Assembly (NCBI GenBank): GCA_016873845.1
Contig: VGVX01000007.1
Span: forward strand, 1-60,335
Source of the DNA: Ignavibacteria bacterium
Lineage (GTDB): Bacteria; Bacteroidota; Ignavibacteria; Ch128b
Reading direction: 5' to 3'
DNA length: 60,335 nt
Positions 33,017 through 39,290 of the stretch are shown here, piece after piece. Made by a program: the position numbers and the translations under genes. The notes below the pieces were generated by a model. The model did no database searches. It saw nothing but the letters and a program-made list of their open reading frames with translations, and had not been told where the DNA came from. The stretch's first letter is position 1. Each line of letters opens with the position of its first letter.

Positions 33017-34420
33017 ATGTCTAAATCAAAACAAAAAATATTTCTGCTTCTTACGGATTTCATTACAATTAACATTTCGTGGATTTTATTTTTCTATTTC
33101 AGGGTTGAGGCAAATTGGTTTGAAATGGTTTTTCAGCCAGAGTTTATGCTGCCGATGTTTGTGGTTTATGTTTATTGGTTCTTGATTTTTCTATTTGTTG
33201 GAATGTATCGGACTTGGTTCGCTGCTTCTCGTTTTGATGAATTGACTACTCTATTTAAATCTTCCTTTTTTGGCGTTCTTATACTTTTTTTCTTGATCTT
33301 CATTGACGATGCTATGCATCAAGTTAGCTCAACTCAACGGTTTGTTATTCTTCTCTACTGGGGAATATTCTTACTATTCGTTGGCGGAGGAAGGCTTTTC
33401 ATTCGAAGTCTGCAGCGCCAATTATTGATCAAAGGCATTGGACGGCGGAATACCCTGATTGTCGGCTTCAATGAAAGAGCAAAAAGTATCTATGATCAAA
33501 TAGAACATTACCGTGCACTCGGTCTTGATGTAGCGGGATTCGTTACACTCAGTGATAACTCAAGCGGTGCGTATAAGGATAAAAAAGTTATTGCACAAAT
33601 TGACAATTTAGAGCAAATCGTTGAGCAGAACAAAATTGAAGAGATAATCATTGCGCTCGATCATCACGAGCACGCGCAAATGCTTGAAGTCGTTGCGAAG
33701 TGTGATATTAAGGGAGTTAGTATCAAAATCGTTCCCGATTTATATGAGATCATTAGCGGACAGGCGCGAACAAACCAGCTCTATGGTTTCCCGCTCATCG
33801 AAATTATGCCCGAGTTAATGCCGGTTTGGGAACAAAAAATTAAAAGAACAATAGACTTATTCGTTTCTACACTTATTTTAATTATTACCTCACCAGTTTT
33901 GATTTTAGTATCTCTTTCGATTAAAATTGATTCAAAAGGACCTGTTTTTTACAAACAAATCCGAGTTGGAAAAGATGGAAAGGAATTTAAAGTCTATAAG
34001 TTCCGGTCCATGCTTCAAGACGCCGAAAAACTTTCAGGTCCGGTTTGGTCGCAGAAAAATGATCCGCGTATTACGAGAGTTGGTCGATTTATTCGCACAG
34101 TCCGACTTGATGAAGTGCCGCAGTTCATAAATATTTTTCAAGGACATATGAGTTTGGTCGGTCCGAGACCCGAGCGGCCATTTTTTGTTGAAAAACTTTC
34201 CCAGGAAATTCCTTTATATAAGAGAAGATTAAAAGTCCGGCCAGGAATTACCGGCTGGGCTCAAGTGAAACATAAGTATGATGAGAACATTGAAGATGTG
34301 AAGAAGAAGTTACAGTACGATCTTTATTATATTGAAAATATTTCACTGAGGATGGATTTTAAAATTCTCTTCAGAACTATTTTCGTTGTGCTTTTCGGGA
34401 AAGGACATTTTGAGAATTGA
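33017..34420 (+). CDS. Polyprenyl-phosphate sugar-1-phosphate transferase (WbaP/WcaJ type)
   Basis: This enzyme starts repeat-unit synthesis by moving a sugar-1-phosphate from a nucleotide sugar to undecaprenyl phosphate. The 467-residue protein has an N-terminal four-helix membrane region (about 1-125), a Rossmann-like CoA-binding-3 domain (about 145-260) and a monotopic phosphoglycosyltransferase domain (about 275-467). The catalytic Asp-Glu pair is D365-E366 in RLDEVPQ; KFRSM, GPRPERP and RPGITGWAQV are also present. The last codons (Glu-Asn-stop) are part of a heptamer repeat array. Confidence 0.93.
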   Translation: MSKSKQKIFLLLTDFITINISWILFFYFRVEANWFEMVFQPEFMLPMFVVYVYWFLIFLFVGMYRTWFAASRFDELTTLFKSSFFGVLILFFLIFIDDAMHQVSSTQRFVILLYWGIFLLFVGGGRLFIRSLQRQLLIKGIGRRNTLIVGFNERAKSIYDQIEHYRALGLDVAGFVTLSDNSSGAYKDKKVIAQIDNLEQIVEQNKIEEIIIALDHHEHAQMLEVVAKCDIKGVSIKIVPDLYEIISGQARTNQLYGFPLIEIMPELMPVWEQKIKRTIDLFVSTLILIITSPVLILVSLSIKIDSKGPVFYKQIRVGKDGKEFKVYKFRSMLQDAEKLSGPVWSQKNDPRITRVGRFIRTVRLDEVPQFINIFQGHMSLVGPRPERPFFVEKLSQEIPLYKRRLKVRPGITGWAQVKHKYDENIEDVKKKLQYDLYYIENISLRMDFKILFRTIFVVLFGKGHFEN

Positions 34421-34530: not shown

Positions 34531-35631
34531 ATGAATATTCAAATGGTCGATTTGAAGCGGCAGTATCAAAAAATTAAAACAGAAATTGATGAGGCAATTG
34601 CTGATGTTATAAGTTCAACACAATTCATCGGTGGAAAACATGTTGCAGAATTTGAATGTGAATGTGCCGGTTATCTCGATGTAAAATATACCGCATCGTG
34701 CGCAAATGGAACAGATGCACTGCAAATCGCATTGATGGCACTTGATATTGGAAATGGTGATGAAGTGATCACTACACCATTTACATTTGTTGCTACAACA
34801 GAGATGATAGCTTTAGTCGGTGCAAAACCTGTCTATGTTGATATCGATGAAAAAAGCTTCAACATCGATCCAAAAAAAATAAAAGAAAAAATTACTTCTC
34901 GGACAAAAGCAATCCTTCCGGTTCATCTTTATGGTAATCCAGTCGAAATGGACGAAATCCTTATGATTGCTAAAGAACATAATCTTTTTGTCATAGAAGA
35001 TTCTGCTCAAGCATTTGGTGCAGAGTATAAAGGAAAAAAAATCTGCAGTTTCGGTGATATCGCATGCATCAGTTTTTTCCCGAGTAAAAATTTAGGATGC
35101 TATGGTGATGGAGGAATGGTAACGACAAATTCAGATGAGATCTATAAGCGAGTGAAAATGATTGCTAATCACGGATCCAAGGAACGGTATGTTCACGAAA
35201 TTCTTGGTGTTAACAGTCGACTGGATGCACTTCAAGCTGCAATACTTCGAGTTAAACTAAAATACATTGATCAAGTGAATCAAAACAGAATCAATAATGC
35301 AAAAAAGTATTCTGAAAGATTAGCGGGAATTGATGGAGTGATTGTCCCATCGTTTGAGAGTTACTCAAAACATATCTTTCATCAGTGCACACTTCGAGTA
35401 CCAAGAAGGGATGAACTTCAAAATTATCTTAAAGAAAAAAATATTCCTTCGATGATCTATTATCCAATTCCATTGCACATGCAGCCTGCCTTTAGCAGTT
35501 TTGCTAAAGGCGTAAATTTGCCAATAACCGATAAATTTTCTAAAGAAGTCATTTCACTTCCAATGCATCCCGAATTATTGGAAGAAGAAATTGATTATAT
35601 AACTAGCACAATAAAGGAATTTTATTCTTAA
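34531..35631 (+). CDS. DegT/DnrJ/EryC1/StrS-family sugar aminotransferase
   Basis: This 366-residue PLP enzyme transfers an amino group to a keto nucleotide sugar. It has the family start (VDLKRQYQKIKTEIDEAI), GTDALQIALMALDIG, EDSAQAFGAEYKGKKICSFG and the PLP-binding Lys 186 in FFPSKNLGCYGDGGM. The C-terminal part has HIFHQCTLRVP. Its substrate is unknown; with the RmlB-like gene at 18329 in the same locus, a dTDP-3- or 4-keto-6-deoxyhexose is a reasonable inference. It overlaps the next gene by one base. Confidence 0.9.
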   Translation: MNIQMVDLKRQYQKIKTEIDEAIADVISSTQFIGGKHVAEFECECAGYLDVKYTASCANGTDALQIALMALDIGNGDEVITTPFTFVATTEMIALVGAKPVYVDIDEKSFNIDPKKIKEKITSRTKAILPVHLYGNPVEMDEILMIAKEHNLFVIEDSAQAFGAEYKGKKICSFGDIACISFFPSKNLGCYGDGGMVTTNSDEIYKRVKMIANHGSKERYVHEILGVNSRLDALQAAILRVKLKYIDQVNQNRINNAKKYSERLAGIDGVIVPSFESYSKHIFHQCTLRVPRRDELQNYLKEKNIPSMIYYPIPLHMQPAFSSFAKGVNLPITDKFSKEVISLPMHPELLEEEIDYITSTIKEFYS

Positions 35632-36350
35632 TGTCTGAAGCCCTTGTAATTATTCCGACCTACAATGAATCCGAAAATATCGCTAAGATAATTCCGGATA
35701 TATTGAAACTTACAAAAGGGGAGGTAGATATTGCGGTAGTGGATGATAATTCTCCTGATGGCACTGCGGATGTCGTCCGTAAATTTCAGAAAGAGAATGA
35801 AAATATAATTCTCATAAATCGTTTGAAAAAAGAAGGACTCGGAAAAGCATATGTTGCCGGTTTTGAATTCGCATTAAAGAATGGATATGAATTTATTTTC
35901 GAAATGGATGCTGACTACTCTCACGATCCAAAGGAAATAAAAAATTTTCTTAAGAAGATTAAAGATTTCGATTTAGTAATCGGTTCTCGTTATGTGCAAG
36001 GCGTCAGAGTTCTGAATTGGCCGCTTAGAAGATTGTTCCTTAGTGTATTCGCAAATCTTTATACAAAAGTTATTACTGGAATGCCCATCTATGATGCTAC
36101 GGGAGGATTCAAATGCTTCCGACGGAAAGTACTTGAATCGATCGATTTGAAAAAAATTAAATCAAATGGTTATGCATTTCAGATTGAAATGAATTTCAAA
36201 GCATTCAAGAAAGGTTTCAACATAGCTGAAATGCCGATTGTCTTTGTTGATCGAATTAAAGGACATTCCAAAATGAGCAGAAAGATTGTATGGGAGGCGG
36301 CATGGATGGTCTGGAAGCTGAGAATAAAAAGTTTATTCAAACTTTTATAA
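35631..36350 (+). CDS. Polyprenol-phosphate mannosyltransferase-like GT2 (DPM1 type)
   Basis: This 239-residue GT-A enzyme has IIPTYNESENIAKIIPDIL at the start, VVDDNSPDGTADVV, and the metal site MDADYSHDPKEI. It ends shortly after IKGHSKMSRKIVWEA, as in dolichol-phosphate mannose synthase-like enzymes, and lacks membrane helices. It probably loads a sugar on polyprenyl phosphate as a membrane donor for glycosylation on the outside. Start overlaps the aminotransferase stop (TAATG). The actual sugar is not certain. Confidence 0.87.
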   Translation: MSEALVIIPTYNESENIAKIIPDILKLTKGEVDIAVVDDNSPDGTADVVRKFQKENENIILINRLKKEGLGKAYVAGFEFALKNGYEFIFEMDADYSHDPKEIKNFLKKIKDFDLVIGSRYVQGVRVLNWPLRRLFLSVFANLYTKVITGMPIYDATGGFKCFRRKVLESIDLKKIKSNGYAFQIEMNFKAFKKGFNIAEMPIVFVDRIKGHSKMSRKIVWEAAWMVWKLRIKSLFKLL

Positions 36351-36359
36351 AGGTATCGT

Positions 36360-38336
36360 TTGATCGACCTATCTATTATAATAGTTAATTTTAACGTTAA
36401 AGCTTTTTTGCAGAACTGTTTGATCTCGATTCAAAAATCAGTTCAGAACATTTCACACGAAATAATCGTTGTTGATAACGCATCGGATGATGGCAGTGTC
36501 GAATTTATCAAGAAGAATTTTTCGCAAGTCAATTTAATTGAGTCAAAGACTAATTTAGGTTTTAGCAAAGCAAACAATCTCGGATTGCTGAAAGCATCTG
36601 GAAAGTATATTTGCCTGATCAATCCGGATACGTTAGTGCAGGAAAATACATTTATTGAGATGATCAAATTCTTTGAGTCAAATCCAGAAGCGGGTTTAGC
36701 CGGTTGCAAAATCCTGAATCCTGATGGTACGTTTCAGCTTGCATGCCGGCGAAGTTTCCCTACGCCATGGGTTGCATTTACAAAGGTCATTGGATTGAGC
36801 AGACTTTTTCCCAAGTTCAAATTTTTTTCAAAATATAATTTGACATACCTAAATGAAAACGAAACTTATGAAGTAGATGCCGTCAGCGGTTCATTCATGT
36901 TTTTGCGTAAAGATGTTTACGAAAAAATTGGCGGACTGGATGAAAAATTTTTTATGTATGGAGAGGATCTTGATTGGTGCTACCGTGTTAATGCAAACGG
37001 ATACAAAGTTTATTACGTTCACTCAACACAAATAATTCACTACAAAGGAGAGAGTACGCGCCGCAGCAATCTTGATGAGGTAAAAGTTTTTTACGGTGCG
37101 ATGCGTCTATTTGTCAGTAAACATTTTTCAACCTCTTGGCTTTTAGAAATTGTCTTACAAGCAGCAATTAATCTGAGAAGCTTTGCGGCTTTTGTTGGAA
37201 AACGAAAACTGATCTTCACTGCTGTTTTGGTTGAAGTAATTATTTTCAATTTGGTGTTATTATTGAGCGAGGAATTGTACAAAGTTTTTTCTGGATTTGG
37301 CGGATTTCCTAATTATGCATATCCAATTGTTTTTATTATTCCTGCGTTGATTTTCTTGTTGACTGCATTTTCATTGCAATGTTATGAAATAAAGAATCTT
37401 CCGGTTTCAAAATTGCTGATTGCAATTTTTATAAGTTTTCTTTTCACAAGCACTTTAACATATTTCTTTAAGGATTATGCATTCAGTCGTGCTATTATTC
37501 TAATCCTGTATCTAATGCTTGCGGTTGTTCTTCCTTTGTGGCGAATAATTATTAAAATATGGTTTAAATATCCAAGAACAAATCGGCGCTCACTTTTTGA
37601 AGCAGGGACGCTAATTGTCGGGACAAATGATTCTGCTGTGGAGCTTATCCGGAAATTAAAACGCTCGCATAATTTTTATTGTGATATTATTGGCTTAATT
37701 GATATTGATAGAAAACGAATTGGGGAAAAAATTAAGGATGTCGAAATTATCGGAAGTATCGATGCCATCGGAAAAATAATTCGTGCAAAAAAAATTAATG
37801 AGGTTATTTTTGCGACTGATTTTCTTTCTTATCAAGATTTATTAAAAATTGTTGCTTCGAATCAAGGATTAAATACTCAATTTCATCTTGTAGATAAAAA
37901 TTATGATTTCATCATTGGAAAAAAAGATGTTATGGAACTGGATAACCTGCCATTAATCGAAATTGAATACAATATTACTCAGCCTATTCATCGGTTTATG
38001 AAGCGTGCTTTTGATCTCTTTGTCGCCATTCCTTTAATAATTTTTGTATATCCTATCGCAATCCTTATCAGACTAATTTCAAATAAGAAAAATAAATTAT
38101 TATATTTACCTCAGGTGTTTATAGGTAAGTACAGCTTTGTCGGAGCATCTCTTTCTGAAAAGGAGAGCAGTATTTACCTTGGAAAACCTGGATTAACCGG
38201 TATTGTTCAGATAAACGAAAATAAAAATCTATCTGATGAAGAAATTGAACACATGAATATTTACTATGCAAGGAATCAAAATATTTGGTTGGATATTGAA
38301 ATTATCATTAAGCAGGTACAAAATTTTATTAGGTAA
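36360..38336 (+). CDS. GT2 glycosyltransferase fused to a degenerate phosphoglycosyltransferase
   Basis: This 658-residue protein joins three parts. Residues 1 to about 270 are a GT2 of the WbbL type (IIIVNFNVKAFLQNCL, VVDNASDDGS, INPDTLV, DAVSGSFMFLRKDVYEKIGGLDEKFFMYGEDLDW). About 280-405 is a block of four membrane helices and about 415-535 a Rossmann-like domain (TLIVGTNDSAVELIRKL), as in WbaP-type enzymes. From 548 (KRAFDLFV) there is a remnant phosphoglycosyltransferase domain that keeps LPQ (583-585), SFVGAS and GKPGLTGIVQ but lacks the KFRSM region and the Asp-Glu dyad. It is therefore unlikely to be an active initiating transferase. It starts 10 bases after the DPM1-like gene. Confidence 0.85.
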   Translation: MIDLSIIIVNFNVKAFLQNCLISIQKSVQNISHEIIVVDNASDDGSVEFIKKNFSQVNLIESKTNLGFSKANNLGLLKASGKYICLINPDTLVQENTFIEMIKFFESNPEAGLAGCKILNPDGTFQLACRRSFPTPWVAFTKVIGLSRLFPKFKFFSKYNLTYLNENETYEVDAVSGSFMFLRKDVYEKIGGLDEKFFMYGEDLDWCYRVNANGYKVYYVHSTQIIHYKGESTRRSNLDEVKVFYGAMRLFVSKHFSTSWLLEIVLQAAINLRSFAAFVGKRKLIFTAVLVEVIIFNLVLLLSEELYKVFSGFGGFPNYAYPIVFIIPALIFLLTAFSLQCYEIKNLPVSKLLIAIFISFLFTSTLTYFFKDYAFSRAIILILYLMLAVVLPLWRIIIKIWFKYPRTNRRSLFEAGTLIVGTNDSAVELIRKLKRSHNFYCDIIGLIDIDRKRIGEKIKDVEIIGSIDAIGKIIRAKKINEVIFATDFLSYQDLLKIVASNQGLNTQFHLVDKNYDFIIGKKDVMELDNLPLIEIEYNITQPIHRFMKRAFDLFVAIPLIIFVYPIAILIRLISNKKNKLLYLPQVFIGKYSFVGASLSEKESSIYLGKPGLTGIVQINENKNLSDEEIEHMNIYYARNQNIWLDIEIIIKQVQNFIR

Positions 38337-38339
38337 GTT

Positions 38340-39290
38340 ATGGCAAAGACAATATTAGAATTTGAAAAACCAATCATAGAACTCGAAGCTAAAATTTCCG
38401 AAATGCGAAAGCTCTCGGAAACTTTGGATATCAACGAAGAAATCGGCGGGCTTGAAGAAAAAATAAATCTCCTTCAAGATCAAATTTATGCAAATCTCTC
38501 CCGCTGGCAGATTGTTCAATTAGCTCGGCATCCCGAGAGACCATATACAATAGATTATATCGAAAAAATGTCCACAAATTTTATTGAACTGCATGGTGAT
38601 AGAACATTCAGAGATGATAAAGCTGTCGTCGGCGGATTTGGGATGCTCGATGGCGAAACCGTAATGTTCATTGGACAGCAGAAAGGTCGAGATACAAAGA
38701 GCAATCTCTACAGAAACTTTGGAATGATGAATCCAGAAGGCTATAGAAAAGCATTGCGGTTGATGAAACTCGCAGAAAAATTTAATAAGCCAGTTATCAC
38801 TTTTCTTGATACGCCTGGTGCATATCCTGGTATTGAAGCCGAAGAGCGAGGGCAAGCAGAAGCAATTGCGAAAAATTTATTTGAAATGTCTTGTCTTAAA
38901 ATTCCCATAATTGTCGTAATCATTGGAGAAGGAGCTTCCGGCGGGGCGCTTGGAATAGGAATAGGTGATAAAGTATTAATGCTCGAATACTGCTGGTACT
39001 CTGTAATTTCTCCTGAATCATGTTCAAGTATTTTATGGAGAAGTTGGGAATACAAAGAACAAGCCGCAGAAGCATTGAAATTAACTGCGCGTGATTTACT
39101 TGATCTGAAAATTATCGATAAGATCGTTCCAGAACCAAAAGGAGGGGCTCACCGTAATCCTGATGAAGCTGCTATGATTTTAAAACGAATCTTAATTTCT
39201 GAATTGAAAAAATTAAAAAAAATAAAAATAGATAAACTAATTTCTGATCGAATAGAAAAATTCGCAAACATGGGGGTTTATTCGGAGTAA
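38340..39290 (+). CDS. accA: Acetyl-CoA carboxylase carboxyltransferase subunit alpha
   Basis: AccA pairs with AccD to transfer carboxyl from biotin to acetyl-CoA, giving malonyl-CoA for fatty acid synthesis. The 316-residue protein starts with [20 protein letters not shown], followed by [69 protein letters not shown] and [15 protein letters not shown], all hallmarks of the family. accD is not in this window. It begins 4 bases after the GT2 fusion gene, so it may be read through from the polysaccharide locus. Confidence 0.97.

Follow-up and report, generated by a model that had tools for sequence, protein, structure and literature searches.

Introduction

Large monotopic phosphoglycosyltransferases (Lg-PGTs) and bifunctional monoPGTs (Bi-PGTs) are established enzyme classes (PMC10942596). 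Among the Lg-PGTs, WbaP is a homodimer held together mainly by its PF13727 domain, which binds the uridine nucleotides UDP and UMP; its C-terminal beta-hairpin swaps between the subunits, and UMP inhibits the enzyme (PMC10942596). An Lg-PGT can also be controlled by a partner protein. In the EpsW-EpsZ system of Myxococcus xanthus, a non-catalytic partner, EpsW, controls the Lg-PGT and is proposed to promote its active dimer (PMC12802240). Whether PGTs form complexes with the glycosyltransferases that follow them is a standing question in glycan assembly.

Here, we describe a gene of an Ignavibacteria bacterium that lies on a 60,335-nucleotide stretch of contig VGVX01000007.1 (assembly GCA_016873845.1), the whole of which is referred to as the window. 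Its product shares with the Lg-PGTs WbaP and WcaJ (PF13727 plus PF02397, TIGR03025) a transmembrane (TM) bundle, a PF13727 domain, a re-entrant helix and C-terminal helices, all in the same order. Unlike these enzymes, it lacks the KFRSM, DPR, Asp-Glu dyad and PRP elements, and it possesses an added N-terminal GT2 domain. Like the Bi-PGTs (PMC10942596), it joins an extra functional domain to a monoPGT core; however, the PGT catalytic domain that defines Bi-PGTs is dead in the fusion, which carries all of the Lg-PGT accessory domains. The GT2 domain resembles the rhamnosyltransferase-like enzymes of TIGR01556 in its NPD and GED motifs, but it is joined to a C-terminal membrane half. EpsW differs from the fusion in being a single-domain response regulator and not a pseudo-PGT. 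The GT2/pseudo-Lg-PGT architecture was not found described in the open-access papers searched on PGT pseudoenzymes, fusions and scaffolds.

Table 1. Coordinates in the window of the fusion gene, its parts and its neighbors.
Feature	Coordinates	Strand	Remarks
GT2/pseudo-Lg-PGT fusion gene	36360..38336	+	658 aa; TTG start; AAAGG upstream
GT2 catalytic domain	36360..37139	+	Residues 1-260; Pfam and column counts
Membrane bundle corresponding to the Lg-PGT four-helix bundle	37182..37574	+	Residues ~275-405; predicted helices, TIGR03025 match
Rossmann-like PF13727 'CoA_binding_3' domain	37575..37950	+	Residues ~406-530; Pfam, PDB and fold matches
Equivalent of the WbaP swapped C-terminal beta-hairpin and linker	37911..37986	+	Strands 517-519 and 524-526 (AlphaFold2)
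Degenerate PGT domain	38001..38333	+	Residues 548-658; active-site block deleted
Intact Lg-PGT, WbaP/WcaJ type	33017..34420	+	KFRSM, LDEVPQ, SLVGPRP; Pfam, NCBIfam, tree
DegT/DnrJ/EryC1 aminotransferase	34531..35631	+	Between Lg-PGT and GT2 in some loci
Second GT2, polyprenyl-phosphate sugar synthase-like	35631..36350	+	Usual upstream neighbor of the fusion
accA (acetyl-CoA carboxylase alpha)	38340..39290	+	3 bp downstream of the fusion

Results

Domain organization and predicted structure of the fusion

The coordinates and frame of the fusion ORF proved correct, and it is a single open frame without a frameshift. Pfam locates Glycos_transf_2 at residues 5–191 (E 2.5e-22), CoA_binding_3 (PF13727) at 349–500 (E 1.3e-12), and Bac_transf (PF02397) only at 583–657, covering profile positions 94–178 of 179 (E 3.1e-10). 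The NCBIfam model EPS_sugtrans (TIGR03025) matches from residue 291 onward (E 4.8e-43), at roughly half of its curated cut-off (148 vs 295.55 bits), and a sequence search of the PDB returns WbaP (E 2e-11). An earlier note on this DNA had confined the PGT homology to approximately residues 400–658. Instead, the Lg-PGT homology starts at the TM bundle, near residue 290, and therefore a whole Lg-PGT has been fused to the GT2. The arrangement that marks an Lg-PGT, a TM bundle and PF13727 ahead of the PGT core, is accordingly present in the fusion.

Motif residues of the GT2 domain, namely D39-N40, N88-P89-D90, G201-E202-D203 and H227, are invariant in all 77 fusion sequences compared. In GT2 enzymes, NPD is the metal-binding motif and GED the catalytic one. 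Because these residues are kept throughout, the GT2 domain is expected, on sequence grounds, to be active. Its match to the TIGR01556 rhamnosyltransferase model (E 1.6e-16, 60.3 bits) falls short of the curated cut-off of 200.55 bits, and by this measure the fusion is not a member of that family.

AlphaFold2 models were obtained for the full-length fusion (77 homologues; pLDDT 87.8, pTM 0.81) and for residues 272–658 (97 homologues; mean pLDDT 87.6, pTM 0.66). The membrane bundle is modeled as helices 260–281, 283–311, 318–338, 349–369 and 377–402. In the C-terminal domain, the re-entrant helix is modeled as a helix-break-helix (542–562/564–574) and precedes a short helix (579–588) at the place of the catalytic helix; two small strands come next, and two helices end the chain. 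The hairpin strands are weakly predicted in these monomer models, and residues 529–535 poorly so. The best PDB match of the C-terminal half by Foldseek is WbaP (8t53_A; E 3.5e-12, TM 0.51), with PglC also among the matches.

Loss of the PGT active site

That the GT2 is fused to a catalytically dead PGT, as the earlier note had claimed, is strongly supported. The last domain of the fusion is about 74 residues shorter than that of the intact enzyme encoded at 33017, and 59 of these residues are missing in one block. We measured spacings between anchors that are invariant or near-invariant columns of both families (K548/K276, P565/P293, S592/S379, G611/G410, Y636/Y438 and D645/D447, fusion/33017). 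The distance from K548 to P565 is 17 residues in both proteins, whereas that from P565 to S592, between the re-entrant helix and SxVG, is 27 in the fusion and 86 in the intact enzyme (59 missing). Further along, S592–G611 spans 19 vs 31 residues (12 missing) and G611–Y636 25 vs 28 (3 missing); Y636–D645 is again equal, at 9. The 59-residue block comprises KFRSM, DPR and the Asp-Glu dyad, and PRP is also absent, which bears out the proposal that the KFRSM stretch and acidic pair are gone here but intact in the 33017 product. Residues invariant in the active family that have no counterpart in the fusion include Q314, R316, K328, R330, M332 and D349-P350-R351, and likewise D365-E366, Q369, R384 and P385. 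In the PDB sequence alignment, WbaP skips from residue 303 to 416, an interval spanned by 32 fusion residues.

KFRSM-like, DPR and VGPRP motifs were found in none of the 169 fusion-family sequences examined, and columns 581–582, which align with the dyad, are variable (L/R/K, L/K/N and others). Neither the domain search nor the model revealed an intact active site. The core thus differs from that of a Bi-PGT, in which an active PGT core accompanies the second functional domain. Matches in 18 fusions to DE[LVIMF][PA] or other dyad-type patterns, among those listed, were rejected, as they fall within PF13727, before the KRxFD start of the PGT core, and not at the catalytic site.

What remains of the pseudo-PGT domain includes SxVG (592–595), GKxGLTG (608–614), Y636 and D645, together with a re-entrant helix that keeps its basic start and proline break (K548 in 77/77, D552 in 76/77 and P565 in 71/77 sequences). 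In Lg-PGTs this helix faces the lipid. Over the PF13727 and re-entrant part, the intact 33017 enzyme and the fusion are 28% identical. The landmarks listed in the earlier note, KRAFD at 548, LPQ at 583, SFVG at 592 and GKPGLTG at 608, are all present, but the glutamine of LPQ is not a landmark of the family (Q in 6/77 sequences, P in 52/77).

In the families of L144–L146, L148 and L151, an unrelated-looking insert of roughly 20–40 residues (e.g. SVNIFLDSSTTVNVSFLKP) stands where the catalytic block has been deleted.

Distribution, selection and origin

Among the 197 class genomes, most of them metagenome assemblies, 186 match a profile of the fusion (171/178 of good quality), with a few partial matches at contig ends. 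Of the 11 genomes that do not match, nine have no accA either, and a missing contig is therefore the likelier reason for the absence of the fusion; one genome (G371) has accA with no fusion directly upstream. Orthologues of the same layout range from 84% down to 34% identity, and a scan that kept the best 80 of 349 relatives showed the layout in 80 named genomes assembled from metagenomes (Ignavibacteriota/Bacteroidetes). It is also present in other classes of the phylum: 163 of 297 genomes in a phylum sample match at E <= 1e-60, some through GT2-only or truncated proteins. In some lineages (L143, L152–L158 and L170–L173), the GT2 persists but its C-terminal half has decayed or disappeared. 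Proteins of 405–620 aa in L171, L172, L173 and L143, all from other classes, consist of the GT2 and a partial membrane region, with the pseudo-PGT lost or nearly so.

A recent frameshift in a single strain, or an assembly error, was discarded as the source of the truncation, since the frame is uninterrupted and all 169 sequences share the short form of the domain. The loss of the active site is ancient and shared, not peculiar to the source genome.

Selection was estimated from ten close pairs, in which domains with saturated dS yielded no value. The dN/dS of the pseudo-PGT is 0.08–0.16, compared with approximately 0.04–0.06 for the GT2 and mostly 0.02–0.07 for PF13727. The pseudo-PGT thus changes at two to three times the rate of the GT2 domain; within the C-terminal half, PF13727 evolves most slowly in the majority of pairs. 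These values place the pseudo-PGT under purifying selection, if less strict than that on the other domains.

A single branch (SH-aLRT 100) in a tree of Lg-PGT-like halves separates every one of the 35 fusions from the active Lg-PGTs, E. coli WcaJ included. This tree is a quick search of 68 rows under a PMSF model, with some long branches and a root that the data do not fix. A single ancient origin of the fusion is the simplest reading. Another fully supported clade unites 18 of the 21 active Lg-PGTs that reside in the cluster with one unlinked Lg-PGT (G008); it stands apart from paralogues in the same genomes and includes neighbors from four other families. The remaining three, in families f43 and f46, are WcaJ-like, and the neighbor in those lineages is therefore a different enzyme.

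Gene cluster and linkage to an intact Lg-PGT

The fusion lies in a tightly packed cluster in the order GT4 (31828), Lg-PGT (33017), DegT (34531), GT2 (35631), fusion (36360) and accA (38340), with gaps of 3–9 bp flanking the fusion. The 33017 product matches PF02397 over profile positions 1–178 (E 1.4e-71) and is the probable functional partner of the fusion.

The suggestion that the same fusion would be found beside WbaP-type genes elsewhere held within the class: of the 79 loci with enough flank, 73 have an intact Lg-PGT at most 5 kb away on the same strand, 74 the upstream GT2 and 76 accA. Outside the class, however, linkage to an intact Lg-PGT at this distance was seen at only 7 of the 28 testable loci. 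Retention of the GLTG motif is associated with partner linkage before correction for relatedness (odds ratio 8, p 8e-4), an association that is gone once relatedness is allowed for.

Two further features of these neighborhoods were noted. In 15 of the 28 testable loci of other classes, accA likewise comes directly after the glycan genes, and two genomes carry tandem active Lg-PGT genes of the cluster type (G051, contig C4:234770-237752; G357, contig C59:10671-13549).

Discussion

Persistence of the dead half by selection beside a working copy suggests that it is a membrane platform rather than a catalyst. We infer the platform role because WbaP dimerizes via PF13727, because PF13727 and the re-entrant helix are kept in the fusion, and because of the linkage to an Lg-PGT in the class. 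The protein would then be an active, membrane-bound GT2 carried on a former Lg-PGT whose active site was lost long ago, with the pseudo-PGT half serving as a membrane and oligomerization platform. Such a platform could hold the glycosyltransferase on the cytoplasmic side of the membrane, the site of undecaprenyl-diphosphate sugar synthesis. The fusion would most likely pair with the intact Lg-PGT of the cluster, using the TM bundle and PF13727 for contact, so that a sugar loaded by the latter might be extended at once by the GT2. Judging from the gene cluster, the product may be the disaccharide with which an envelope or exported glycan begins.

We regard this account as a whole, an active GT2 on a dead platform that likely pairs with the intact Lg-PGT and extends its sugar immediately, as evenly balanced between right and wrong. 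Its parts differ in strength. The general picture, in which a dead Lg-PGT serves as the platform of a membrane-bound GT2, is much surer than the pairing. That the ancient pseudo-PGT pairs with the active Lg-PGT via a PF13727/TM interface, as a two-step assembly complex that starts the glycan, is put forward tentatively, as less likely than not, because of the sparse linkage outside the class, the C-terminal losses and the negative corrected test. The earlier idea of the pseudo-enzyme as a dock that may bring the GT2 to the lipid-linked sugar or the active transferase is plausible; the retained re-entrant helix, TM bundle, PF13727 dimerization domain and gene linkage are consistent with it, but the relatedness-corrected test lent it no support.

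A rather unlikely alternative, though the closest competitor, is that the pseudo-PGT is a mere anchor or homodimerization module and that the linkage reflects only a shared pathway. Its best-kept elements, the re-entrant and C-terminal helices, are indeed membrane ones, several lineages carry the fusion without a nearby active Lg-PGT, WbaP homodimerizes through the same PF13727 domain, and the relatedness-corrected partner test was negative. However, a plain anchor needs neither a PF13727 domain conserved about as tightly as the GT2 in most pairs nor a neighboring Lg-PGT of one specific kind in 73/79 loci. Less probable still is a regulatory role, in which PF13727 would sense UDP/UMP and the re-entrant domain undecaprenyl carriers, tuning either the GT2 or the active PGT. 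Nucleotide binding to WbaP PF13727, inhibition by UMP (PMC10942596) and the slow evolution of PF13727 fit such a role, but the sequence carries no sign of a dedicated sensor. The faster evolution of the pseudo-PGT and its loss in some lineages might alternatively mark a decaying, roleless tail, a reading made very improbable by its dN/dS, the lack of internal stops and its conservation across the class and beyond. Least credible is residual transferase activity through an altered active site: a folded PGT-like core remains, with K548, Y636 and D645 invariant and D552 near-invariant among the fusions, but the nucleotide and catalytic motifs are absent in all members examined and the dyad-aligned positions vary.

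If the pairing of GT2 platform and Lg-PGT is correct, a genetically fixed complex would bring the extending GT2 straight to the enzyme that makes the lipid-linked sugar. A GT2-dead Lg-PGT beside a living Lg-PGT across a whole class is a ready-made test case, since the dead half separates binding from catalysis. Furthermore, PF02397 and PF13727 matches in such genomes will be over-counted as initiating enzymes unless the active site is checked.

Other PGT-related ORFs were also observed. The source genome (G000, contig C25; L202:1382-3178) contains a 599-aa ORF that resembles a nucleotidyltransferase bearing left-handed-helix repeats joined to a monoPGT, the latter with KFRTM and DELP and without a PRP motif; similar ORFs of 590–594 aa occur in the relatives G001–G005. 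Finally, a 1492-aa open frame (L182:2956-7431) consists of the fusion and a long extra stretch.
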